A DNA stretch of 64,000 nt from Paenibacillus polymyxa M1 (lineage in GTDB: Bacteria > Bacillota > Bacilli > Paenibacillales > Paenibacillaceae): NCBI RefSeq assembly GCF_000237325.1, contig NC_017543.1, positions 62,001 through 126,000 on the forward strand, read 5' to 3'. This document shows positions 3,867 through 63,119 of the stretch, piece after piece (within the stretch, counting starts at the first letter, position 1; each line of letters opens with the position of its first letter). The notes below the pieces were generated by a model. That model worked only from the letters and a program-made list of their open reading frames with translations, ran no database searches and was not told the origin of the DNA. The translations under genes and the position numbers were made by a program.

Positions 3867-6800
3867 TCACTCGGACTCGAACAGCGTGATATCTTTGCCA
3901 GACCCCGCTTCCATTCGTTTCAGTAAGGTATCTATCTCTTCATCCGTCATACTGTTCACCCGCTCCAGTAACTCTGCAGAATCGTCTATCCCCAGTGAAT
4001 CCAAATCCGTTCGCCCCTCCGTTGTTTGTTGTTCCTCCACTAGAAGAACCAAATGTGCGATGCATGGATATTCAAAAAAACGTGGTACCTCAATGTCAAA
4101 GCCCATAGTTCGCTTAATTTCCGCTGTCATTTGTACAATTAGAAGAGAATGTCCGCCCAAATCAAAAAAATCATCATGTGTTCCGATTTGTTCAATACCG
4201 AGAATCTTCTTCCAAATTTCCACTAGACCTGCTTCCAAAGGAGTCTCCGGTGGCTTAAAAGGCGTTGCTAGTTGAGGGCGTGGATACATTTGTTCTGCTG
4301 ATTCCACAATCGGAGCTATTTCCTCCACAGCGCCGTGTAAAGGAACCTGACCTATGCCGAGTCCACATAATGCTGCGTTCGAAAACACAGTCAAACGAGG
4401 TTCGATCCAATAGCGTTGACGCTCAAACGGATACGTTGGCAATTCTACCCGGTTACGCACCCGGGACTCGTGTAACGCTCCCCATCCGATGCTTACACCT
4501 CCGCTCCACAGTTCTGCCACGCTTCTCAGCCACTGCCCCCGTTCTCCGCCCCCGGTTTTGTACATTGGTAATGTACGCATGCCTCTGTGCTCCGCTTCCC
4601 AGCAGCCTGACTGCCGCATCAATGTCGTTAATGTCTGCCCCGGACCTAATTCTATGACTACCGCATTCGGATACCTCTTTAGCACCTGCTCCGCATTGTC
4701 TGCAAACCTCACCGCTCGGCGCGTATGCGACACCCAATAGGCCGGATTGCTTGCCTGCTCCTTGGTAATCCACTCCCCCGTTTCGTTAGATACGTAAGGT
4801 AGCTGCGGTGCATGGAGCTTTACACGCTTCAAAGCCTCTTCCAGTTCTCCCAGCACCGCTTCCATCCGCGAGGAATGAAATGCGCTGCCCGTTCGCAGTT
4901 GGCGGCATTCTACACCTGCTTCCTGCATGCGAACCATCAATTCTTCTACCTCTTCCGTCTGTCCCGTCACCACGCTCATTTGCGGTCCATTGATGGCTGC
5001 GATCTCCAGCGTTCCTCCTAATTGTTCGGCCAACTCGGACGCGACCATGCCAACTGCCGCCATCGCTCCCGCTTCACATCGCTGCATCAGTCGCCCACGG
5101 ACGCTCACCAGCTCCAGCCCTTCCTCCAAGCTGAACACTCCTGCTATACAGGCGGCCGTATATTCTCCCAGACTGTGCCCGATCAGCGCAATGGGTTTCA
5201 CCCCCACACTCATCCACAACTGGGCCAGGGCATATTCGGTCACAAACAGCGCTGGTTGGGTCAGCCATGTCTCCTCTAATTGCTTCTCTTCAAAGCCATC
5301 TCTTCCCAGCAACGCATCCCGGATATCCATACCCAGTTGCGGCTTTAACAGCTCGGCACAGCGATCCACCGTTTCCCGGTATTTCGCCTCCTGCAGGTAC
5401 AGTTCCGCGCCCATGCCTACATATTGGCTTCCCTGTCCGGGAAAAGCGAAAATAACCGGACGCTCTCCCGCAGCTACTGCACCGGTGCGAACTAGGCTTA
5501 CGTCGTCGCCTCGCAAGGCGCGCAACGCCTGCTCCGTACTGCCGCACACGGCGCTCCAGCGATGATCGAATGCCTTGCGCCCCTGTTGCAGAGTGAAAGC
5601 CACATCGGAAAGCTTTTGCGACGGATGAGCCTCTAAGTGCGCTGCCAATCGCTCGCACATGGTTTGTAACGCCGACGGCGTTCGAGCCGACAACACGAGC
5701 ACCTCTTCCGCTGATGGAGCGTCCGACGTCCGTTGTGCAGGAGCTTGTTCCACAATGACATGCGCATTCGTGCCTCCAATGCCAAAGGAACTGACCCCTG
5801 CCCGGCGAGGATGAAGTGATTGGTCATGGGTCCATGGCTGTGTCTTATCTACGACATAAAACGGGCTGTTGGCCCAATCCACTGCCGGGTTGCCCTTCGT
5901 ATAATGCAGACTCGCCGGTAGCATCTCGTGACGCAGCGATAACGCCACCTTGATCAGGCTGGCCACCCCTGCGGCAGCATCCAAATGACCGACGTTGGTT
6001 TTCACCGAGCCAATCCCGCACCAGGGACCATTCGCCGAAGCTCCAAACACCTTCGTTAGCGCCGCCAGCTCAATGGGGTCACCAAGTGGAGTGCCGGTCC
6101 CATGAGCCTCCACATATGAAATGGTCTCGGGTTTGACACCTGCCGAATCCAGTGCCATCTGGATAACTTCCGCCTGTCCCCCAATACTTGGAGCCGTGTA
6201 GCCTACCTTTCGTCCGCCATCATTGTTAATGGCAGATCCTTTAATGACGGCATGAATGGTATCGCCATCTTGTAATGCCTTGTTCAGCAGTTTAAGGACC
6301 ACGACACCTACACCGCTTCCAGCGACCGTTCCCTTTGCCTGAGCGTCAAAAGCCCGACAATGGCCGTCTGGCGAGAAAATCCCCCCCTCTTGGTAGACAT
6401 ATCCCTGTTCGTGAGGAACAGTAATGGTCGCTCCACCCGCAATGGCCATGTCACAATCGCCTCGCGACAATGCTTGGCAGGCAAGATGAACGGCTACCAA
6501 AGAAGTCGAGCACCCAGTCTGCACCGAAAGACTGGGCCCCTTCAAATTTAATTTGTAGGCAGTACGAGTTGACAGATGGTCTTTATCATTCCCCATAAGC
6601 GCTTGATAAGAAAGTAGCGGATCTGCCAGATTAAAGTGAGAGAACAGCGCGAAAAGTAAGTAGGTGCTAATGCCTGACCCCGCATAAACACCTATAGGAA
6701 TTTCACCTCTTGAGGGATCGTATCCGGCTTTCTCCACCGCCTCCCAAGCACAGTCAAGGAACAAACGCTGCTGAGGGTCAAGCATCTCCGCTTCCCTTGG

Positions 6801-11300: not shown

Positions 11301-14300
11301 TACAATATGCCTTCCTCCCAAACGTATTCTTCTCCGTCCCCTTCCAGATCGTTAGTCTGGCTTTCGGGTACTCCGCCGAGAAGTGAATGCACCAGCACAT
11401 GATTGTCTTTCAATTTGAACAGACTTCGGATAGAATCAAATTCGATTACGCCGACTGGGCATAGACCCAGCTCACATGCTGACGCTTCAGACATAAGTAA
11501 CTGTCCCATATAACCAGATTCAAGAGTGCACAGACGGGTAGCCTGCTCTCCGTACATCGGTCCGATGGCATCCAGATCAGCTATTAGGAAAATCGTGAAA
11601 GCTGCCTGCTCGAATACGGGCTGATATACGAACGGGACGTGAATATCTTTACTTAACCGTGCTTCAGGCGACAGGAACAAAAGCCTATTTTTGGACGGAT
11701 CATAGTAATATATCCCCTCATCCAATCCTTCGACGTGTCTACCATGAACATATAAATACGTCTGAACCGCATAGAGTTCCCCGAAAGATGGGTATTGCCT
11801 GCTGCTTTTTCCACCCACCTCACTATGCCGCAGCGATTGGAGCATTCTTGCCAGACGGATAAAGGGTACAATCTCTTGCGCAAAATGGCGACATGGCTCC
11901 AATCCTTTGAATCCGGCAGATTTTTTCTTGTTGGTTAGGTCAATTGAAGGAGCGTACGGTTCCGATCGCAACCAGTGACGCTGTCGTTTAAAATGCTCGC
12001 GTTCTTCAGGGTCCAAAATGATTTCATAATCAACCATAGCGGTTTCTTCCTCAGCTTTGACCGCCTGGGCCTGCCGGGATTTCACCATTGTATTTTTATC
12101 CAGTCTGGAAGTATACGAGCGTATTATGTCCCCAACTGTCGGATGACGGTAGAATTCATCGAATTTAATTCGAATACCGAATGCTTTTTCCAAAGCATTC
12201 GCCATTCGCACAACATCCATCGAGGTAACGCCAAGCTTAAGAAGATCGGATTCCTCTGTTAAAATCTCAAACTGTAAGGTCTCCCTAATTAAGGCCAAAA
12301 TTTGGTTCCGATTTGTTTCTTTCTTTGGTTGGCTTGCATCCGTTTTTGTGGTCAGTCCAATCTGATGTGGTGCGGGCAAGGCCTTGACATCCAGTTTTCC
12401 ATTAGCGTTTATTGGCCACTGCTCCAGGATAAAGACTGTGGCTGGAACCATGTAATCCGGGAGTTTATCGCTTAGGTACATTCTCAAGTGCTGACCGTCG
12501 AGTTCATTGGTATAAGTAGTATGAAGCAGCACATATCCTGCAACTAAAGAATCACCCGATGGACCCGCCTTCACTGTTACAAGTGCCTCCTTAACGGCCT
12601 CATGCCGCCTCAGTGCTTCTTCAATCTCGCCAAGTTCGATCCGAAAGCCACGAATCTTGACTCGAGTATCCTCTCGTCCCAGGAACTCAATGTCACCGCT
12701 TGGCAAGTACCGTCCCAAGTCTCCGGTACGATACAATCTTTCTCCCGACTCTGGATGAGTAATGAAGCTGTGAAGAGTTTTGTCCGCATTTCGCCAGTAT
12801 TCCCGGGCTAATCCGATTCCCCCAATATACAATTCCCCGGGAACCCAGACAGGACGATGCTCCAGTTTTTCATTCAGCACATAGAGATGCTGGTTAGCCA
12901 TTGGTCGACCATATGGGATGCTTTTCCAAGCCAACTCAATATGTTCAATGGGATATAGAACCGACCAAATTGAGGCTTCCGTCGCACCCCCTAAGCTCAC
13001 AATTTTCACATCGGGCCGAGCAATTTCACGAATCCTTTCTGGTAAGCGAATAGGAATCCGGTCGCCGCTTAGTAATATCAACCTCAGGCTGTCCGGCAAA
13101 CGCCGAAATGACGCATTCGCATAATCAACCAAAAGACCCATTAAAGCAGGAACTGTGTTCCAAACAGTAACCTGACATTCATCCATTCGGTCAAGCCAAT
13201 GTTTGGGGTCCTTCGCTCCCTCGGAATGTGGATAAACGACTGCACCGCCTGATTGAAGCATGCCTACTAGATCAAACACCGACAAGTCAAAGCTAAGCGA
13301 AGATAAAGCCAGTACCCGATCTCCAAACCCTATCTGATAGCGGGTACGCAAATCTTCTAGTGTATTCTTTGCACCTCTATGCGTAATAGCTACCCCTTTG
13401 GGTACCCCTGTTGATCCCGACGTATAAATAATGTAGGCCAAATCATCCTCTGAAGCCGAATGTTGCATAGGTTGAAGGATTTCATCCTCCTGAAAATTGT
13501 GATCGTCCACACAGTAACGTTCGACCCGGTTGGGCCAGTCAATACGTGAATTCACCCTTGATTGCGTTATGGCATAACGGATGTTTCCATCTGAAAACAG
13601 CAATTGAATCCGCTCGTCCGGTAAGCTCGGATCAATCGGAAGATACGAGGCACCGGCACGCAGGATTCCAAGCACAGCTACCGCTTGCTCCCATCCCTTC
13701 TCCATCACTATCGCCACAGGTTGATCCCGAGTTATACCCCGGCTTTCGATCCAGCAGGCTAAGTTGTTTGCAAGACACGCCAATTCAACGTAAGTTAATG
13801 TTAATTCAGGCGTTTGTATGGCCAAATTCCCCGGATGTTGGCGTGACAGTTCAAAAAATGGCTCATGAAGCAATCCTCCCGGTAGTGTTGTCTCCGTTGC
13901 ATTGATTTCATGAATCCGCTCCAAATGGTTCATCGGCAATAAGTGTCTGACAGGCTCGTCCCAAGCCTGAGCCTCTTCCGTCAATCGGCTGAGCAAAGAA
14001 CAGTAGGCCGTAAACATATCGTCGATCATTCCAGGAGGGAAAAGTTCCTCAGCCACATCCCAATGAAAACGCAACATGCCGGCATCTTCGTAAACCTGAT
14101 GATCCAGAAAGACTTGCGGGGTTTGACTTATCCCATACACCACATCGCCCAAGCCCCGCATCACGGAGGCATCCAGACCATCGACCGCCGTTAAAGTGCT
14201 AGTGAAAACAACCGGCATAACTACGCCAGCCTTGTCCAGATTGGTGCGCGCATAATCACGCATCACTTTTACACCACTATAAAAACGATGATCTAAATCC

Positions 14301-17300
14301 TCCCAAAGCTTCTGCTGAATCATTTTTATCCGCGATCCAAATGAAGCTTCTTTAGAACAGTCCACCTCTAATAACGTTAGAGTCGTAAAATCGCCAATAA
14401 TCCGGTTCACATCTGGATGTAAGGGAAGGCGGTTGAAAAGCGTTAAATTTATCGTAAACCTCGGATTCCTGCTCCAAGCGGCTAGCACTTCACTGAATGC
14501 CCCTAGTAAAATAATCGATGGAGTAACTCCGAAGCGTCCTCCATAGCCACAAAGCAAACGCCAATCTTCCGCATGAAGAAAAGAAGCGAGACGGCGAAAC
14601 CTTGATGCTTTTAATGGACCCGCCGAGCGGACAATAGGTAGTTCAGGGGCTGGCGGCAGTTCCGGTATCCGTGCGGCCCAATAAGCTTCCGAACGAGTAT
14701 ACGCTTCACTTTCAAGTATCTGCTGCTCAGCAAGCACATAGTCGCGGAATGTTAACTCTAATGGTTTTAAAGGAACTTGCGGATTATGGATAAGCTGAGT
14801 AAGTTCTTGCAGCAAAACGTACCAACTTTGTGCGTCCCCGATTAATAGGTCTACACTAAAATGCAAACGAAGCTTGTCTATGGAAAAGCGGGTTACACTG
14901 ACATCAAACATAGGATACTGATCAGCAGGTTTATTAAGATGTGAGAGTTTATTCCGAATTTCATTAAGTTTTTGCTCTGCCTCGATGGAGTTCAAATGTT
15001 GCAAATCTCTGTATTTTACTTCATAATGCGGAACTTCTTTAAGAATAATCTGCATTCCATCGTTACGGACGATAGCTCGCATCATCGGATGACGATTAAT
15101 GAGTACGTTTAAAGCATGATTCAAACGTGAGACCGGGAATATATCGGTCTCAATCTCGATATAAAGATGTGCTCCTACATCGCCAAGCTCAAATTCAGAA
15201 CGACGGCCGATCCAGTAAGCTTGCTGCACATCATTGAGCGGGAAAGGCTCATAGAGATCCTCTGGGGCTGGAACAGCAGGTTTCCAAGCATAATCTCCAG
15301 AACTTTGCGGCAACCCGGAACAAGCTCCTGCGGCTGCAGCTTTATCCAAGTAAGCCGATAGCTCAGCAATCGTCGGTGCAGCGATTAATTCACGCAGGGG
15401 GCACTCTATTTTTAAAATCTCTCGGATTTTGGAAACTAATTGAATGGCTAAAAGAGAGTGTCCTCCTAATTCAAAAAAACTGTCCTCTATTCCAATCTCA
15501 CCAATACCGAGAAGTTCGCTCCATACTTGGACCAACGTTCTCTCTAACGGTGTCCGGGGAGATACTTTTGCCTTGTCTTTGTCCCACTGCGACGCATCGG
15601 GTGAAGGCAAGGAGTTACGATCAGCTTTGCCATTGCCCAAGAGGGGGATATGTTCCAGTTCAATGAACAATGAAGGAACCATATATGCAGGTAACGCTTG
15701 CCGTGTATATTCACGAAGGTCAGCGATCGATAGCGTTGCGCCCTCTGCTCTCACCCAATAGGCGATAAGTCTGGAGCTACCCGAGGCATCGGGCTGCGCA
15801 ATCAGGACAACATCACATACGCCCGCATGTTGCCTCATCACTGCCTCGATTTCCCCCAGTTCAATCCGAAATCCACGGACCTTGACCTGATCATCATTAC
15901 GGCCGAGAAACTCTAACGCACCGTCCGACCGAAAGCGTGCCAAATCGCCAGTACGATACAATCGAGCGCCGGGTCTGTCTGTATATAGATCAGGCAAAAA
16001 TCGTTCCGCTGTCAGTTCTTCCTGGCCCCAATAGCCGCGAGCTACACCTACTCCGCCTATATAAAGTTCCCCTGCCACTCCGATCGGCACACGATGTCCT
16101 TGAGCATCCAATACATACATCTGCATATTCGCAATAGGTCGACCTATGGGCACTGTTAATTCATCCTGCTTGCATTCCCACCAAGTGGCTTCGACTGCGG
16201 CTTCTGTTGGGCCGTACAGATTAATCAAACGGACTCCTAGTCTTTTTATACACGCTTGCGCAATATCTGGGGCAAGTGCTTCGCCTGTACAATAGACCTG
16301 CTGGAGTGAGGAACAGCGACTCAAATCCCGCTCCTGCAGAAAAATTCGCAGCATAGAAGGGACGAAATGAGCCACGGTAATTCTGTGTTTTGAGATGAAA
16401 TCAACCAAGTACGCACTATCCACATGCCCGTCCGGTCTGGCTATCATCAGCCGTGCGCCCGTTATCAGCGGCCAGAACATCTCCCAAATGGAGACGTCAA
16501 ACGTGTATGTCGTTTTTTGAATGACTCGATCGCAGGTTTCAAGCTGAAAAGTTTCAAGCATCCAATGCATTCGGTTGCAAATCCCTCGGTGTTCGTTCAT
16601 AACCCCTTTGGGCTTGCCCGTCGAGCCGGAGGTATATATGACATATGCTAGATGCTCCGGTTTTATATCGACGTTTACCGGCAATACACTTTCTTGAGAA
16701 ATTTTGTTCTCCCATTCGGCATCAAGCATAACCGCATGAATTTCCAACTCAGGAAAAACTTCCTTTAAGTGCGTTTGTGTAAGAAGAACCTGCACGTTAG
16801 AATCTTCAATCATAAAGCGGATTCGTTCCAACGGATAATCCGGACCTATAGGTACGTAAGCCCCGCCGGCCTTGAGGATACCTAAAATGCCAATAACGAG
16901 CTCGAACGAACGATCCAAAAGCATACCTACCGTCTGTTCCGGTCCGATCCCTTTCTTTCTCAGATAGTGAGCCAGTTGGTTACTTTTCTGCTCCATTTCC
17001 AGATATGTGAGCTTTTCACCTTCAAATTCTAAGGCTACGGCATTCGGTGTACGACGAACCTGATTCTCAAACATTTCGTGGAGCAGCCAAGGGCCGTCAT
17101 AACTGGACGACGTATTGTTCCATGCTTGAAAATCAAGCAATTCCTCTTTGTTAAGTATCGGTAGTTCGCCAATCGACAGTTCCGCATTGCTTGCAGCGGA
17201 TTCAAGCAACGTTTGCCAATGAGATGAAATACGGGCTACGGTAGATTCATCGAACAGATCGGTATTATATTCGATTTCGAGCTCCAATCCCTCCTCGCAT

Positions 17301-53297: not shown

Positions 53298-54665
53298 TCA
53301 GTAACGAGGTTTTGGTAAAAGATACAACAACTTATCAAGTTGATATTTATGTTCATATTTTTTTATAACATCTTGAAATATTGAAGCTACTTCATAAAAA
53401 GGTGAAATTGACTCATTTTCTTTTAATGTTGCAAGTTCGAATAGAATGAAGCCTTTCTCTTTATTCATATTTTCGTCAACAAAATACAAGGCACTTCTTA
53501 ATGCATCATTTTGTTTAGTTAATTGCTTACTCAATTTATAGAAATTCGAAGCTAGCCAATAGGTCTTATAATTTGTATGCGGTGATACCTTGTTTTTCAT
53601 TCCCATACACCAATCTAGTAGTGGTTCAATATTATCTAGTCTTTTTTCTTCAATTAATTGTTCTATCCATAAATGAAGATATTCTATCTGAAATGATTCT
53701 TTATCTACAATAGTAAGATAATTAACTTCGAAAAAATCACGTATCTCAGAGTATTTAAAACGATCTATCTTATAAAGTATATAAAAGCATTTGTACATAT
53801 TATTTATCGAATCGCTGTCTTTTATTTTTTGGTAGAAGGACAGGGATTCTGAAATATAGCTATATGCTCGGTCTTTATCTTCTTTAATTAAATATAAAAC
53901 TCCTAAAGTAAATTTGATTTCCGTCAGATAATATAGATTTTCTTGTGATATTTTTTCAGCGTTATGAGCATGAAAAATAGCTATGTCTGTGTACCCAACA
54001 AAACTATACAATAGAGCCATATTTAAATATGTATTGTACCGCTGCTCTTCAGACAAGTTTTTATCAAAACGCACATCAGCACGTTTTGTAAACTTCAATG
54101 CTACAATAATTTCATTCTGATTAAATGCCCTACATGCTAATGCATTTAGTGAGCGAACCCTGTAATGATTCAGGAGTGAGTGATTTCCAGATAAATTAAT
54201 TATTTTTTTGTAAATAGCTTTAGCTTCCTTGTATAATCCACTCGAAGAATAAATCTCTGCTTGAGTAAACAATAATGCGGGGTGGACCCATTTTTGTTCT
54301 CTAGAACTTAATGTGATTTTGATCTTTTCTGTTAATTTTTTAGCTTCATTTAACAGCCCTGCAGTTACAAATTGTAGGGCTAATTCGAGATCCGAAGTAT
54401 ACTTTTCAATAGGTGGTTTTAATAGTGCATCATCATTCAAGATATTAGCCACAGGTATATTTAATGATTCTGCTATAGAGTTTATCTCATCATAATAGTC
54501 TTTATGTATCTTTCCTTTTTCTATAGAGGATATTTTTCCAACAGAGATATTAACGTTTTTTGATAAGTTGGCTATACTTACTTTAGCATTTTGGCGTGCC
54601 TTTCTTAGATTGATCCCAACTTTAACGGGATCAAAATCTTGAAAATTATACATTTTCTTTTCCAC
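53298..54665 (-). CDS. Second HTH-TPR regulator, RRNPP-like
   Basis: A 455-residue protein starting at GTG 54665 after GAGGGG. Residues about 16-75 are an XRE helix-turn-helix (LRKARQNAKVSIANLSKNV, ISVGKISSIEKGKI), and the remainder is a helical TPR-like array (FTQAEIYSSSGLYKEAKAIYKKI, LNMALLYSFVGYTDIAIFHAHNAEKI). It has the same build as the regulator at 46903-48300 but a different sequence, so the element carries two putative peptide-responsive regulators. A short ORF with a good ribosome site follows directly. Function and ligand are unknown; a role in timing of transfer or expression of the element would fit. Confidence 0.85.
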   Translation of the reverse strand: MEKKMYNFQDFDPVKVGINLRKARQNAKVSIANLSKNVNISVGKISSIEKGKIHKDYYDEINSIAESLNIPVANILNDDALLKPPIEKYTSDLELALQFVTAGLLNEAKKLTEKIKITLSSREQKWVHPALLFTQAEIYSSSGLYKEAKAIYKKIINLSGNHSLLNHYRVRSLNALACRAFNQNEIIVALKFTKRADVRFDKNLSEEQRYNTYLNMALLYSFVGYTDIAIFHAHNAEKISQENLYYLTEIKFTLGVLYLIKEDKDRAYSYISESLSFYQKIKDSDSINNMYKCFYILYKIDRFKYSEIRDFFEVNYLTIVDKESFQIEYLHLWIEQLIEEKRLDNIEPLLDWCMGMKNKVSPHTNYKTYWLASNFYKLSKQLTKQNDALRSALYFVDENMNKEKGFILFELATLKENESISPFYEVASIFQDVIKKYEHKYQLDKLLYLLPKPRY

Positions 54666-56237: not shown

Positions 56238-56714
56238 TTATTCTACAGTTCTGAGTTGTTCTAATTGTAGATGAACTAGCTCCTGCATTCGTTTTTGAGA
56301 CAGCCCCAAATCTTCCAAAGCTTGAGAGTTTGCAAAGGGATGAATCTTTTTACCTATTGTTTTTTTGTAGTAATTCAGTGTAAACTTTACCCTTTTCCGC
56401 GCTGAAATACTACTACTTACACTTGCTCTACAGAACAAGCTTAACTCCGCAAGTGCTGAAGCCGTCTCTGTTCTAGAAAGTTTTGTCCAAATGATATAGT
56501 TTTGTCTATCTTGGATGCCTGATTGAAGGACCAGTTCTGCGACTTTAGGAAATTTCGAAAGATCAATAGTATAATTCATGATAACTTTTCCCCTTCCATC
56601 TTCAGAAACATACGTTGAACCATGTATCCGAAGTAATAGATAAGAAAATCCTAATCTTGGAGTCGGATTGTTCTCTTTCTTTCTCATTATGTTTGAGTCA
56701 TTATCAATTATCAA
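56238..56714 (-). CDS. Small protein coupled to the TopIII-FtsK gene
   Basis: A protein of up to 158 residues that begins 16 bases after the stop of the TopIII-FtsK gene, so the two form an operon. The N-terminus is uncertain: ATG 56579 has GGAAGGGG before it and would give a 113-residue protein starting MNYTIDLSKFPKV, while the longer form starts at 56714. The body is helical with several basic positions (SARKRVKFTLNYYKKTIGKK) and ends with LSQKRMQELVHLQLEQLR. It could be a DNA-binding or adaptor partner of the fusion protein; the family was not recognised. Confidence 0.65.
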   Translation of the reverse strand: MIIDNDSNIMRKKENNPTPRLGFSYLLLRIHGSTYVSEDGRGKVIMNYTIDLSKFPKVAELVLQSGIQDRQNYIIWTKLSRTETASALAELSLFCRASVSSSISARKRVKFTLNYYKKTIGKKIHPFANSQALEDLGLSQKRMQELVHLQLEQLRTVE

Positions 56715-56730
56715 TTTTCTACAGGAATAT

Positions 56731-59700
56731 TTATTTATCCTCTCGATAAGGATTCGTTTGAGAGATGTAATTCACCACATTTTCTATTTCTTCATCTGAT
56801 ACATAAGCCGAAACAAGTCGCTGCCTTGGCCCATCTTTAGGTTTAAAGATCATGTCTCCTTTTCCAAGTAAATCTTCTGCACCAGACTCGTCTAAAATAA
56901 CCATAGAATCATTCGTAGCTGCTACAGCAAACGCTAAACGTACAGGTAAATTAGCTTTTATATTCGGAGATAAAAATTGCTTTGTTGGCCTTTGGGTAGC
57001 TATTACCATATGAATACCTGCAGCTCGGGCTAGTTGAGATAAACGTTGAATTTGTATCTCTACGTCTGCAGCAGCAGTCATCATAAGATCTGCAAGCTCA
57101 TCTATAATAAGCACAATATACGGAAGTTTTGATGCTTTCGGATTTTTTTGTGTAATTTGCTCATTATACGATTGAATATTTCGAACACCCAATTCAGCAA
57201 AAAGATCATATCGTTTATCCATTTCATTGGTTAAAGATTTAAGTGCCATAATTGCCCTTTGAGGATCAATTATTATCGGACAGAACAAATGCGGAAGTTT
57301 AGAATATACCGACAGCTCTACCTTCTTTGGATCAATCATAACAAATCTCAATTCGCTAGGCTTCAAACCATAAAGCAAACTGATTATAAGTGCATTGAGG
57401 AACACAGATTTACCCGCGCCGGTTTCACCTGCTATTAGTAAATGGGGCATCTTCGCTAAATCAGCAAAAATCGGATTTCCAACCATATCAACACCAATGG
57501 GGAAAAGGAGAGCACTCCGTTTCACGAGAAAATCTCTATTATCTAACATTCCTCTTAAATTTACGATATACGGGTTTTTGTTAGGTACCTCAATACCAAC
57601 GTGATTCGAACCTGGTATGGGTGAATATAGTGTGATTCTTTCGGCCTGAAGAGCTGCCTGGAAATTATCCTTATAACGTCGATAATTCGAAATATTAATC
57701 TTTAACGTCTCTGGGAGCATTTCATAACGAACAACTTTAGGGCCATGAGAGACTTTTTTTACTTTTGCAGGCATCTTAATCATCGCAGTAGCAGTTTCAA
57801 TCCATTCGATCTCCTGACGATTGTTCTCTTCTGATTTATGTTGTTCTTGAAACCGTAGTAATGATGTAGGCAATTGAAGTACTCTCGGTTCGGGAGACTT
57901 GAATTCGATGCCAGCATTGTCTTTCATAACAATTGCCGCATCAAAGTAATCGTTAGCATTTTTCCTTTTGAATCCTTTTTTTACTGGGGTTTCACCTTTA
58001 TTAAGTAATTGCTGAACATCATCTTTTGTTATCTCCACACCGAGAATCACTTTACTAATCGTGAAATCACAACCAGTATACTTGTATCCGCTGCAACCAT
58101 AAAATCTACCTTTATCTACGACTAAAGCTGCCTGACACTTTGGACAATAGCCGAGATCATGCATATTCATAGCTTTGCGTGACTGCATCGGCGACCGATT
58201 GTTCTGCTTAGATGCTTCCCCACTAGTTTTTGTATAATTAACAAGTCGAGTTTGGGAAGCAGTGTAACCGAGACCTTCTTTATTGCTCTTCAAAACCGTA
58301 GGTTTATTTTCATCTTGAGCTAGCTGCTGCATCTCAGGAGTTGTATGATCAGATGAAGATATAGGTTGATTATAAACTTCCTCTATTAGACTTGTAGCCT
58401 GTGTATTTACCTCAGGAGATAATTTTGTCTCTTCACTCCGTACTGTATACGATGAATTTTGCTGCACTTGCTGTTGAACCGAGTCCGCTGATACACGCGG
58501 AAATCGTTTTTGTAACTCTATAAGATCAATAAGTACTTTTCGTGGTGAGTATCCTAAGTAAGGACCGATAACGCCATCCTGTTCCATCCGGTCAATGAGT
58601 CCTGCACATTCTGTATAACCAAGGGCTAATCGTCTCTGTAAGAAAGAAACACTAACCTGCCTTGATTGTACAACCTCTGAGACGGCTTTAAAGTATAACT
58701 CATCCCCTAAATTAATCAACTCATTATTAGTACTTTGAGCCTGAGCATAAGTATGGTGTAAATGCTGTGTGCCAATTACGGAAGCAGAAACCTTACTTTG
58801 TAATCCTGCGATTTCAGTCGAAGGCTGAGATAAGTCTTCTTTAGTTGAATCAGTTGTTGTCTGAGGACCTTCTCTCCTCATCGAATTTCGTGAATTGGAT
58901 ACACTAAGGGTTTCAGCAATTGATGCTGATGGTGAAGCAACAGAAGAAGACATTCGTTGCACTGAAACATATCCCTCTTGAACCAAGTTCAAGGTTAAAG
59001 CTTTTACCTCTTCGATAAATTGATTGTAATTTACTTTGCCCTGTCCTATTTCACGAAGCTTTTTCTCCCATTGGCCAGTCATTTCTGCACTTGCAAGAAT
59101 TGATTTACCGATCGCTTGGATGAGTGTTCTACCTTTTGAAGTTGAGTAAACCAAATTCCTTCTTATTTCAATGTACTTTTGTTGCTTGAGTTTACCTATC
59201 ATCCCCGAACGTGTAGCTTCAGTGCCCAAACCATCAATGCCTTGAAGTATTTTTTCCAACTCTTGATTTTCAAGACTCTTTCCGGCATTTTTCATTAAAG
59301 TAATCAGATCACCTTCAGTGTAACGTTTAGGAGGTTGCGTCTTACCCTCCTTAGAAATAACCTCAGTAGCTATACCTTGTTCCCCTATCACAAGAGGAGG
59401 TAGATTTTGCTCATCTGCATCAATTGTCTCCTTTTCTTCTATTTGTCCTCCTGGATAAAGTACTTTACGCCACCCTTCCTGAACTATGATTTTCCCTTTA
59501 GAAATGAAGGAAAACTTAGCATCTACATATGTGATAATTTCTTTGTAATCAAAAATTGCATTTTCATAATGAGCCGCAATTAATGAACGTGCAATTAACC
59601 CGTAGATATGTCGCTCACGATCATCTAAATCAGAAAGTTGGGGGACGTTTTCTGTTGGAATAATGGCATAGTGATCAGAAACTTTTTCCGGATTTACGTA

Positions 59701-60801
59701 CCTTCTATTTCCAATCAATGTACTAATGGGGGCAGGTAGTAGATCAGAAAATTCATGTACATTTTTTAACTTATTAAGAATTAACGGAAATATAGCTGCT
59801 TCATTTTCTGTGATATATTGTGAGTCAGATCTCGGGTAGCTCACAATCCCACGCTCGTAGAGTCCCTGAACGATATCCAACACTTCTTGAGTTGAGTAAC
59901 GATACTTTTTATTTGCTAAAGTTTGCAATGATGAAAGATTATGTAGCAAAGGTGGTTTAAACTGCTTCTGATCTTCTTTAACATCACGTATAACTGCAGG
60001 TTTACCCTCACAAGCATGCTTCAAATCTAAAGAAAGTTTCTGTACAGGTAAATTCGTCAATGAATCTTTATACCACTGACCACGGTATTTCTTTCCGTTC
60101 ACCTCAAACTCAGCGAAAACTTGCCAAAATGGCTTTGAAACAAATTTTTCAATTCCAAGTTCTCTTTCAACGATTAATTCGAGCAACGGAGTTTGTACAC
60201 GTCCTGTGGAAAAGATACCATCCTCTTTAGCACCTTTTTTTTGAAGCATTAATGTATACAAGCGAGACGTATTCATACCAACTAGCCAATCTGCGCACTG
60301 TCTACTGTATGCCTCGTAGTAAAGATTCCTCTTTGCAGCCTCAGGGAGTAAGTTTTGAAAGGCTTGCTCAACAGCACTTTTGGTAAGAGAGGAAGTCCAT
60401 AAACGTTTTATAGGTTTCTTATTCCCTACTTGCCTTAAAATAAGTCTAGCTATAAGTTCACCTTCTCTACCAGGATCGGTAGCTATTATGACTTCGGTCA
60501 CCTTTGAATCATTTACAAACTTTTTAATAATACTGTAAAGCCCAGACTTAGCACGGTCGATTTTATATTTAAATGTCGAAGGGACTATGGGTAGATCTTG
60601 AATGTCCCATTTTTTATATTTTGGATCATATTCATCGGGCTCAGCTAAAGAAATCAGGTGTCCAGAAGCCCAAACAAGAAATCCTCCTTTAGGAAAGGTT
60701 TCACTTGGTAGTAGTTCAATGTATCCGTGAGCTTTTTTATGAGGAAAAGGTTTCGCCAATTCTTCAGCTTGAATTTTTTTCTCCGCAAGGACGACTTTCA
60801 T
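56731..60801 (-). CDS. Fusion of topoisomerase III with FtsK gamma domain and FtsK/SpoIIIE motor
   Basis: A 1356-residue protein starting after AAAGGAGG. Residues about 1-600 are a type IA topoisomerase: TOPRIM acidic motif ATDPGREGE near 107, active-site Tyr in SYPRSDS near 320, and GTEATRSGMIGKL. About 697-757 is an FtsK gamma winged helix (VSVSFLQRRLALGYTECAGL, GYSPRKVL), the KOPS/SRS-reading domain. About 884-911 is a topoisomerase-type zinc motif (CPKCQAAL ... GCSGYKYTGC). About 1050-1345 is the FtsK motor (Walker A GETGAGKS near 1124, Walker B LIIDELADL near 1230, ATQRPT). FtsK normally carries gamma after the motor; here it precedes it. No membrane helices are present. The combination suggests a DNA translocase that decatenates as it moves, for element segregation or transfer. 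Confidence 0.93.
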   Translation of the reverse strand: MKVVLAEKKIQAEELAKPFPHKKAHGYIELLPSETFPKGGFLVWASGHLISLAEPDEYDPKYKKWDIQDLPIVPSTFKYKIDRAKSGLYSIIKKFVNDSKVTEVIIATDPGREGELIARLILRQVGNKKPIKRLWTSSLTKSAVEQAFQNLLPEAAKRNLYYEAYSRQCADWLVGMNTSRLYTLMLQKKGAKEDGIFSTGRVQTPLLELIVERELGIEKFVSKPFWQVFAEFEVNGKKYRGQWYKDSLTNLPVQKLSLDLKHACEGKPAVIRDVKEDQKQFKPPLLHNLSSLQTLANKKYRYSTQEVLDIVQGLYERGIVSYPRSDSQYITENEAAIFPLILNKLKNVHEFSDLLPAPISTLIGNRRYVNPEKVSDHYAIIPTENVPQLSDLDDRERHIYGLIARSLIAAHYENAIFDYKEIITYVDAKFSFISKGKIIVQEGWRKVLYPGGQIEEKETIDADEQNLPPLVIGEQGIATEVISKEGKTQPPKRYTEGDLITLMKNAGKSLENQELEKILQGIDGLGTEATRSGMIGKLKQQKYIEIRRNLVYSTSKGRTLIQAIGKSILASAEMTGQWEKKLREIGQGKVNYNQFIEEVKALTLNLVQEGYVSVQRMSSSVASPSASIAETLSVSNSRNSMRREGPQTTTDSTKEDLSQPSTEIAGLQSKVSASVIGTQHLHHTYAQAQSTNNELINLGDELYFKAVSEVVQSRQVSVSFLQRRLALGYTECAGLIDRMEQDGVIGPYLGYSPRKVLIDLIELQKRFPRVSADSVQQQVQQNSSYTVRSEETKLSPEVNTQATSLIEEVYNQPISSSDHTTPEMQQLAQDENKPTVLKSNKEGLGYTASQTRLVNYTKTSGEASKQNNRSPMQSRKAMNMHDLGYCPKCQAALVVDKGRFYGCSGYKYTGCDFTISKVILGVEITKDDVQQLLNKGETPVKKGFKRKNANDYFDAAIVMKDNAGIEFKSPEPRVLQLPTSLLRFQEQHKSEENNRQEIEWIETATAMIKMPAKVKKVSHGPKVVRYEMLPETLKINISNYRRYKDNFQAALQAERITLYSPIPGSNHVGIEVPNKNPYIVNLRGMLDNRDFLVKRSALLFPIGVDMVGNPIFADLAKMPHLLIAGETGAGKSVFLNALIISLLYGLKPSELRFVMIDPKKVELSVYSKLPHLFCPIIIDPQRAIMALKSLTNEMDKRYDLFAELGVRNIQSYNEQITQKNPKASKLPYIVLIIDELADLMMTAAADVEIQIQRLSQLARAAGIHMVIATQRPTKQFLSPNIKANLPVRLAFAVAATNDSMVILDESGAEDLLGKGDMIFKPKDGPRQRLVSAYVSDEEIENVVNYISQTNPYREDK

Positions 60802-61897: not shown

Positions 61898-62255
61898 AAA
61901 AAACACCTTTCTATTTGAGAGTTAAAAGAATGATAAAACTCGTTAGATATAGATTTCTTGCCTTTTTAGTTTGGCTATGCTACTTATTCGATTAGATAAT
62001 TTTCACGCTCACTAAAAAGGATGAATGGAATCTACCATCATCCTCCACAAGGTTCAAAGAAAAAAGCAATATATATACAATTAGGTTTGGAGTCGACTTC
62101 TTGTCGAAGAGGTAATCTAATCTGTACGTCCTTTTTATCCAATGTTTCTTGGATGTACTACATCATACGAGGGTTCATCATAGAATATTGATACTTTTTA
62201 TATAATAAACGAAAAGGTTTTTTTCGAGAAACAAAACCATTATATTCTGAGGCAA
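61898..62255. other. Non-coding gap with a possible 34-residue ORF
   Basis: A minus-strand frame at 62038-62142 (TTG start, no clear ribosome site) encodes a short protein with a coding-like middle (DVQIRLPLRQEVDSKPN) ending EPCGG. It is too short and weakly started to call. The remainder is AT-rich promoter-type sequence. Confidence 0.3.
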
Positions 62256-63014
62256 CTATTTATCTTTTGTTGGAAACAGACGGAGCAAACTACGTGTGTA
62301 TTGCTGGAGGTTTCGTATATAATTAAGAGCAGCCTCACCTTCTTTAGAGATCATAAGTACTCCGATATCTGTAAGACGATAAATATAATGATGTCTTCGT
62401 ATGGAATTCCATTTACCCTCAACCCATCCATTACTGATATCTTCCATTTCATGAGCAAGATCATATATGTACCCTTCTCCACATTGCCAGTTATATCGCT
62501 TTTCCATTAATTCATAAATGTTCACTACTGTCCCTAACTTATGTTCAAGATCATTCAAAATCAGTAGAAACAGATAGCGGGCCAGATGTCGTACACTGAT
62601 GAGACGGTTGAAATGTTTCAATACACCTTCATCCCAAATAGGCTGTTCTCTACTTCCGGAACCAGTAATAATATATGCGAAGTAATCTGCAGCTCCCTTC
62701 AGACGTTGCAATAAATTCAAGTATGTATTTATGAATTGCTCATGTTTTTTTATTCCAGAAGTAGTAATAGTCATGATACGTCTCTTCCCTCTAGTCTCGA
62801 TACAAGATATCCATCCTCTTAAATCCATATCTTGGACAGCTTGATAGATATAAGACTTAGATTTCAAATTGACTGATTCATTTATAACTGAGTCAAATAA
62901 TTCTTTTATATATTTTGGACCATTTTGAAGTTCACGAAAAACAATTAAATAAATAACGTCTTTCGCACTAAGGCCGATTTTAGTGGGTATCAAGGGAGTC
63001 AAGGTTTTTTCCAA
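62256..63014 (-). CDS. Regulator with two PadR-like winged-helix segments
   Basis: A 252-residue protein starting at TTG 63014, chosen because GGAGGAG lies six bases before it; an ATG at 63080 is in frame but has no ribosome site. Two parts look alike: residues about 15-100 (KDVIYLIVFRELQNGPKYI, KSYIYQAVQDMDLRGWIS, RRIMTITTSGIKKHE) and about 160-245 (LVVNIYELM-like segment, GYIYDLAHEMEDISNGWVEG, HYIYRLTDIGVLMI). Both follow the PadR wing pattern of a YIYxxLxxMExxGWIxxxxxxRRxYxxT type. PadR proteins usually dimerise to form such a pair of wings, so a tandem copy in one chain is notable. Targets unknown. Confidence 0.65.
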   Translation of the reverse strand: MEKTLTPLIPTKIGLSAKDVIYLIVFRELQNGPKYIKELFDSVINESVNLKSKSYIYQAVQDMDLRGWISCIETRGKRRIMTITTSGIKKHEQFINTYLNLLQRLKGAADYFAYIITGSGSREQPIWDEGVLKHFNRLISVRHLARYLFLLILNDLEHKLGTVVNIYELMEKRYNWQCGEGYIYDLAHEMEDISNGWVEGKWNSIRRHHYIYRLTDIGVLMISKEGEAALNYIRNLQQYTRSLLRLFPTKDK

Positions 63015-63119
63015 GACAACTCCTCCTACTTTACTTAAATTCTTTTTTCTTCTGACACTGTTTATGAGTTCACAAATCAAGAATTTTTTAACAAGGATCT
63101 TTTTTAAGTATTACTTTTT

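Follow-up and report, generated by a model that had tools for sequence, protein, structure and literature searches.

The window analysed here is a stretch of 64,000 nucleotides from Paenibacillus polymyxa M1 (positions 62,001–126,000 of NC_017543.1), within which a single minus-strand open reading frame (ORF; window 56731..60801, ATG start, 1356 aa) encodes, from the N- to the C-terminus, a topoisomerase III (TopIII) core, an FtsK gamma winged helix, a TopIII zinc repeat, an FtsK alpha domain, and an FtsK beta motor. The replicon bearing the window, hereafter C2, is 366,576 bp long and lies beside a contig of 5,864,546 bp in the same genome; the plasmid pPPM1a of this strain is described as being 366,576 bp long (PMC11577871). 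Genomes, contigs, and loci carry our own numbers (G, C, and L).

The TopIII–FtsK fusion and its relatives

The TopIII core (residues 1–629; 58915..60801, on the minus strand like all parts of the gene) matches NCBIfam PRK07726 ‘DNA topoisomerase 3’ with 658 bits (cut-off 597) and comprises a Toprim domain with the motif ATDPGREGE (residues 3–137; 60391..60795; Pfam PF01751, 37.1 bits) and a Topoisom_bac domain (residues 157–596, within the core; Pfam, 346.5 bits). It is followed by the FtsK_gamma winged helix (residues 700–758; 58528..58704; PF09397, 69.5 bits against a cut-off of 30.6), which also matches the FtsK gamma chains 2j5o/2ve8 (E about 2e-8), and then by the TopIII C-terminal zinc region (residues 884–968; 57898..58152), made up of a Toprim_Crpt match (910–968, 55.8 bits) and a Zn_ribbon_Top1 (C4) match (884–906), the latter below its curated cut-off, with the other domains of the chain all above theirs. 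Four cysteines of this region are invariant in all nine and all 12 sequences of two alignments. The FtsK_alpha domain (residues 984–1074; 57580..57852; PF17854, 58.5 bits) and the FtsK_SpoIIIE beta motor (residues 1082–1272; 56986..57558; PF01580, 205.4 bits) complete the chain; Walker A and Walker B are both present in this alpha-beta part, and the translation contains GETGAGKS and LIIDELADL of the motor as well as ATDPGREGE, SYPRSDS, and GTEATR. We take SYPRSDS to hold the active-site tyrosine and DPGREGE the acidic Toprim residues. The protein further shows a match to the TraB family NF041214 (53.9 bits), far below the cut-off of 800.

An earlier note, made from the sequence alone, had read TopIII, gamma, a zinc motif, and an FtsK motor in this order in one chain, which the ORF and its Pfam and NCBIfam matches confirm. 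The named parts of its domain list stand, although it overlooked the FtsK alpha domain, and its ‘zinc motif’ is a part of the TopIII C-terminal repeat. The permutation it proposed is likewise real: since the chromosomal SpoIIIE of P. polymyxa M1 ends in gamma, the gamma domain ahead of the motor in the fusion is a true change of order.

Full or split fusions were recovered in at least six of 197 relatives, in nine of 394 genomes of the family, nine of 392 of the order, and four of 398 of the class (E up to 1e-140 in the family and order searches and up to 1e-130 in the class search, limits that weaker fusions may escape). The union of these overlapping sets comprises 13 genomes (G000, G011, G052, G058, G068, G082, G244, G290, G467, G501, G518, G647, and G686), besides which two named plasmids, p-YT9A and pY5S7-1, carry the fusion. 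At least three of 72,556 records of a plasmid database have a single place covering 80% of the query, namely p-YT9A, pY5S7-1, and pART37, the last being the same replicon as G011:C2. Public annotation labels the plasmid-borne relatives plainly as ‘DNA topoisomerase 3’ or ‘DNA translocase FtsK’. None of 308 matching phage records covers 80% of the fusion, and six peptide patterns retrieved no relative from the viral contigs of IMG/VR.

Searches of open-licence papers with co-occurring terms and explicit fusion names returned no published description of a TopIII–FtsK fusion; the excerpts of PMC5512222 refer to an FtsK winged helix within polyvalent proteins and not to such a fusion, and those of PMC7824862 mention neither. 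The view of the earlier note that the combination had not been described therefore holds within that literature, yet the protein is not a solitary one, being a member of a family in which about half lack gamma. An open frame with the same domain order occurs in other, independent genomes, with 57% (G052) and 69% (G518 and G290) identity, which excludes an assembly join, the refutation that the note itself had named. The search row for G290 marks a single TGA, yet the whole protein is contained in an open frame of 1439 codons. We accordingly regard an assembly join or a chance read-through of two genes as refuted for practical purposes, nothing having been found in its favour beyond a split of the P. 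terrae (G068) gene across contigs and a group II intron with ltrA that breaks the p-YT9A gene near residue 117 (L060 about 12,000–15,000; p-YT9A 364.4–367.6 kb) and has no counterpart in the window copy.

The gamma domain is present in the fusions of C2, p-YT9A, P. terrae, G052, G058, G244, G290, and G518; it is absent, as read directly, from those of pART37, pY5S7-1, G082, G467, and G647, and was judged absent from G501 and G686 by match ranges and length only. The trees cover a part of the 13 fusions: the TopIII tree omits four loci that yielded no TopIII by pattern (L001, L003, L051, and L053), and p-YT9A and P. terrae are represented, by the open parts of their copies, in the motor tree only. 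In the TopIII tree, nine fused cores group together to the exclusion of 13 stand-alone TopIIIs (support 100/98). In the motor tree, the fusion motors, with a Rossellomorea protein of zinc repeat plus motor among them, separate from ten SpoIIIEs (100/100), the branches being long. The history of gamma requires three changes on the TopIII tree (at least two on well-supported branches) and two on the motor tree (at least one), from which gamma appears to come and go within the fusion clade, as sampled by nine members.

Where it occurs, gamma of the window protein shares 44–85% identity with that of six other members, as against only 8–38% and 14–45% for the linkers on either side; this conservation between divergent linkers points to a selected, maintained domain rather than a relic. 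In more distant fusion members the identity of the C-terminal halves goes down to 43–49%. The recognition helix of gamma, TRAARLID in the host SpoIIIE, has lost its first arginine in all seven plasmid forms, the residues in C2, P. terrae, G290, G518, G052, G058, and G244 being E, E, E, V, E, L, and T at this position and G, K, K, K, K, R, and R at that of the second arginine. Such recognition-helix positions contact the FtsK-orienting polar sequences (KOPS).

XerS and dif-like sites on the megaplasmids

By GC skew, C2 and p-YT9A each consist of two replichores, and 85% of the coding sequence (ORFs of at least 100 aa) is on the leading strand. The skew minimum of C2 (near 175 kb) is about 10 kb away from ParM, and its cumulative-skew maximum (347,197) falls inside a xerS gene (346,538–347,608; L078 538–1608; P if uniform 0.003). 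Comparable placements recur on four further gamma-plus replicons: the skew maximum of p-YT9A is 231 bp from xerS (L081 45665–46738; P if uniform 0.004), the cumulative-skew maximum of G052:C35 is 831 bp from it (P if uniform 0.009), and the local skew maxima of G244:C2 (P if uniform 0.0125, within 80 kb around xerS) and G290:C13 (P if uniform 0.017, within 60 kb around xerS) lie inside it. Five gamma-plus replicons thus have XerS at their apparent replication terminus or close to it, and in three of them (C2, G244, and G290) there is an adjacent dif-like site. A change-point model gives rough 95% ranges for the switch of 343–349 kb in C2 and 93–97 kb in p-YT9A.

The XerS proteins of C2 (364 bits) and p-YT9A (365 bits) both exceed the curated equivalog cut-off of 267, and those of G052, G244, and G290 were assigned by similarity. 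Two types of plasmid XerS occur at or near the switch, the C2 and p-YT9A proteins being only 38% identical; the P. terrae XerS is 94% identical to that of p-YT9A and lies on a different contig from the fusion. Other tyrosine recombinases are found away from the switch, at 14 and 311 kb in C2 and at 37 and 84 kb in pART37, whose switch is at 421 kb. Our searches of open-licence papers found none that treats Paenibacillus and XerS together.

Twelve C2-type xerS loci (L165–L176) were considered, of which ten were scanned, C2 among them (L167 and L168 are near copies). In all ten, the sequence AATTACG(T/C)A starts an imperfect palindrome 53–148 bp upstream of xerS; the motif was not seen in the printed flanks of L175 and L176, which lie outside the scan and match from residues 33 and 39 only. 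A matrix built from nine C2-type sites (C2 included, so that the score of C2 is not independent) was applied to the unseen stretches of G244 and G290, and its best match was upstream of xerS in both, at 270,528 in G244 (29.3 bits) and at 68,559 in G290 (31.5 bits). Among the lesser matches listed, G244 has one to a further dif-like site at a distance of 1.7 kb (26.9), one to the opposite strand of that site (14.3), and one to a second copy, inverted, close to xerS (16.8); in G290 the opposite strand of the best site comes next (14.1), followed by scores of 9.6 and 9.4. The C2 palindrome matches in eight of its 12 pairs, and a second inverted copy occurs 96–98 bp further on in C2 and G244. Two broader candidates were discarded: a dif common to all plasmid xerS genes, for which the flanks of C2, p-YT9A, and G052 offered no outstanding shared 28-mer, and a p-YT9A palindrome of 11-6-11 layout about 200 bp upstream of xerS, which is absent from P. 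terrae despite the 94% identity of the two XerS proteins. The flanks of 12 of 22 chromosomal xerS genes, when compared, showed no shared palindrome.

Several further features were recorded around xerS. Repeats resembling transposon ends (GTAGGCAACTTTGTGTCA / GTAGGCAACTTTATGTCA) lie just upstream of the gene at about 345,950–346,230 in C2 and about 96,000–96,700 in G052:C35. A second, C2-type XerS is encoded about 46–180 kb from the general XerS in G006, G014, G034, G040 (across contig ends), G045, G047, and G244, and those of these loci that were read share the same dif-like motif upstream. Stand-alone TopIII genes lie about 26–29 kb from xerS in G000:C1 (3,033,185 and 3,063,662), G004:C179, and G011:C1. 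The Rossellomorea megaplasmid CP128836.1 encodes XerS at 497 kb, near a gene-strand switch and about 6 kb from a local skew maximum. On the gamma-minus plasmid pY5S7-1, a fragment of a tyrosine-recombinase gene (84 codons, as annotated) lies about 5 kb away from the skew maximum, and PLSDB predicts genes distantly resembling a vanG cluster (L159 32675–35707; 31–55% identity).

A proposed role in megaplasmid segregation and its alternatives

In characterised systems, orienting octamers are recognised by the gamma domain of FtsK, which also activates XerD. XerS/difSL recombination uses FtsK (PMC5357621); enterobacterial replicons above 250 kb all possess an FtsK-controlled Xer site (PMC11724359), and the polarity of KOPS on large replicons switches at dif (PMC13342612). 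Given these precedents, we infer that the fusion might be the plasmid’s own terminus translocase. We propose, with about even confidence, that it is a soluble, megaplasmid-encoded FtsK-type translocase with a built-on TopIII, which acts in late megaplasmid segregation, i.e., terminus segregation and dimer resolution. The hexameric alpha-beta motor would run on plasmid duplex toward the terminus, while the tethered TopIII would unlink sister plasmids by strand passage, perhaps at gaps. Gamma, where present, may load or orient the motor and/or help XerS at dif to resolve dimers, and the gamma-minus members might be confined to unlinking and pumping or depend on another resolvase. Loading, polarity, decatenation, and XerS activation by the fusion are predictions from its domains and their genomic setting. 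A more ambitious form of the proposal, which we advance tentatively and consider short of probable, is that some Paenibacillaceae megaplasmids possess a self-contained terminus machine of their own XerS, dif, and FtsK–TopIII, in which translocation, decatenation, and dimer resolution would be coupled in one protein independently of the host septal FtsK, with gamma retuned away from the sequence that the host SpoIIIE recognises.

Several observations weigh against these proposals. The fusion has no membrane segment (highest 19-residue hydropathy 1.56), and XerS/difSL is reported to need septal FtsK, with XerS reported to be without the residues by which XerD meets FtsK (PMC5357621). About half of the fusion-bearing replicons or contigs, seven in number, are without gamma. 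XerS is encoded on the same contig in five of seven gamma-plus and one of seven gamma-minus cases (one-sided p=0.051, uncorrected for relatedness, in a count of 14 rows that leaves out P. terrae because its gene is split over contigs and includes several draft contigs, G467:C80 being only 24 kb). A strict rule equating gamma with plasmid XerS, strong at first, is broken by G647:C4, which is gamma-minus yet has XerS, and the gamma-plus contigs G058:C5 and G518:C252, on which XerS is not found, also depart from it; G058:C5 has a skew switch without XerS. The two XerS loci of G647 (L294 and L303) show no dif-like pattern in their flanks, and no convincing dif was found for p-YT9A, P. terrae, or G052. 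For G052, the switch comes out at 90 kb in a two-level change-point model, which puts it about 5 kb away from XerS. XerS also fails as a general mark of the terminus, since on the host chromosome it lies at 3.03 Mb, at least 183 kb from the skew switch (between 2.85 and 3.23 Mb, skew is negative in 37 of 38 ten-kb bins and +0.001 in the remaining one). Finally, an XerS match is present in 74 of 75 genomes of the genus, and the plasmid XerS could therefore serve with the host SpoIIIE/FtsK.

Orienting sequences such as the SpoIIIE recognition sequence (SRS) of B. subtilis and the heptamer of L. lactis are known from related systems. The most skewed heptamer of the gamma-plus C2, p-YT9A, and G052 pooled is GAGAAGG (140:20). 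The octamer GAGAAGGG, considered as a gamma signal, is distributed 26:3, which among 56 composition-matched permutations ranks fourth by ratio and 21st by count, a further point against the proposed role, and two gamma-minus plasmids are polar as well (25:6). We rejected this polarity as evidence, as it reflects a general purine polarity and is no better than that of composition-matched octamers. With the altered recognition helix and octamers that do not discriminate, the statement of the earlier note that gamma reads orientation sequences could not be upheld; KOPS itself has the sequence GGGNAGGG (PMC13342612).

An alternative that dispenses with a terminus function is that the protein is a motorised TopIII for intermediates of plasmid replication or repair (precatenanes, converging forks, and recombination joints), akin to a helicase–TopIII pair whose helicase is replaced by a duplex translocase, the XerS at the terminus being separate and served by the host SpoIIIE/FtsK. 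The retention of TopIII and motor without gamma in about half of the fusions, the occurrence of the fusion in few of the many genus genomes with XerS, and the CP128836.1 arrangement, where zinc repeat and motor are in one protein and TopIII in another alongside XerS, would all fit such a role; however, it leaves aside the constraint on gamma in the seven members compared and the placement of XerS at the terminus, or close to it, in five gamma-plus replicons, and we consider it rather unlikely, if still a serious contender.

A role in conjugative DNA processing, in which the fusion would pump and unlink the plasmid for transfer in the manner of TraB-like FtsK proteins or plasmid TopIIIs, appears improbable to us. 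The plasmid family does have genes for VirB4-like, VirB2/PrgI-like, and coupling proteins, p-YT9A is typed MPF_F, the fusion has the weak TraB match given above (54 bits when rounded), and conjugative typing applies to 3851 among 5000 plasmid records listed. In p-YT9A, however, the VirB4-like ATPase, the VirB2/PrgI-like proteins, and the TraM-recognition coupling protein are encoded at 215–254 kb, which leaves about 114 kb between them and the fusion (367–371 kb), though a CpaF-type ATPase (328–330 kb) and a replication-relaxation protein (317–318 kb) are nearer; a dedicated coupling protein already exists on the plasmid, PLSDB types p-YT9A, pART37, and pY5S7-1 as non-mobilizable, and transfer leaves the XerS-terminus pattern unexplained. 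Where segregation and transfer had earlier been offered side by side, the replichore-like megaplasmid, the XerS at or near the skew switch, and the dif-like site favour plasmid segregation, transfer being the less supported of the two.

The neighbourhood of the fusion gene, all on the minus strand, includes a PadR-like regulator upstream (62256..63080), with ORFs of similar N-termini preceding the fusion in G052, G058, and G082; a small ORF immediately downstream that matches no family (56238..56714), with a similar ORF after the fusion in G052; and, further downstream, an HTH–TPR regulator (53298..54665), with similar ORFs in G052 and G082 (all of these likenesses being judged by eye only). 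A function in defence or conflict might be read from the PADLOC models DpdF and SspH, which match the TopIII and motor parts; as these matches span only parts of much longer models, and only one of seven neighbours scanned with PADLOC has even weak, HTH-type matches, we give this explanation very little credence. Elsewhere in the window, positions 3867–28356 hold large nonribosomal peptide synthetase/polyketide synthase genes, with condensation, AMP-binding, and ketosynthase domains in the two of three genes scanned.

Comparison with known systems

Among the closest precedents for the proposed segregation role are the FtsK–XerCD systems of large secondary replicons (PMC11724359, PMC13342612), which share the large replicon, the replichore skew, and a recombination site opposite the origin; there, however, both FtsK and XerCD are those of the host, whereas here the recombinase and the FtsK-type motor are plasmid-encoded. 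The XerS/difSL systems of streptococci and lactococci (PMC5357621, PMC2731167) have XerS beside a dif-like site close to the peak of cumulative GC skew, as some of the present replicons do, but here the module is plasmid-borne, the dif sequence is distinct, and XerS is accompanied by its own unanchored, topoisomerase-bearing FtsK-type translocase.

Among individual proteins, FtsK/SpoIIIE shares with the fusion alpha, beta, and gamma domains scoring above the Pfam cut-offs, the motor being 46–47% identical to Paenibacillus SpoIIIE-type proteins; the fusion differs in having no membrane N-terminus, gamma before the motor, TopIII in front, and the first arginine of the gamma helix lost. With TopIII (TopB, PRK07726) it shares the full core and the C-terminal zinc repeat, its nearest stand-alone relatives being 50–54% identical and mostly about 660–860 aa long, and it departs from them in the gamma-bearing linker between core and zinc repeat and in the appended motor. 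The Rossellomorea CP128836.1 protein annotated as FtsK (WJV31790.1; L268 11683–13140, 485 aa) has a zinc repeat and an alpha-beta motor with 53% identity over fusion residues 867–1355, but is unfused to TopIII, which is encoded elsewhere on CP128836.1, and has no gamma. To our knowledge, and as far as we could find, the connections known at replication termini among translocation, Xer recombination, and decatenation are between separate proteins. In the fusion, a decatenase-type enzyme has been joined by evolution to an FtsK motor within a single chain, and the two have stayed together despite divergence. Such a protein allows one to measure how pumping and unlinking are coupled, and it offers a testable explanation of segregation for megaplasmids that may not borrow the FtsK–Xer system of their host.

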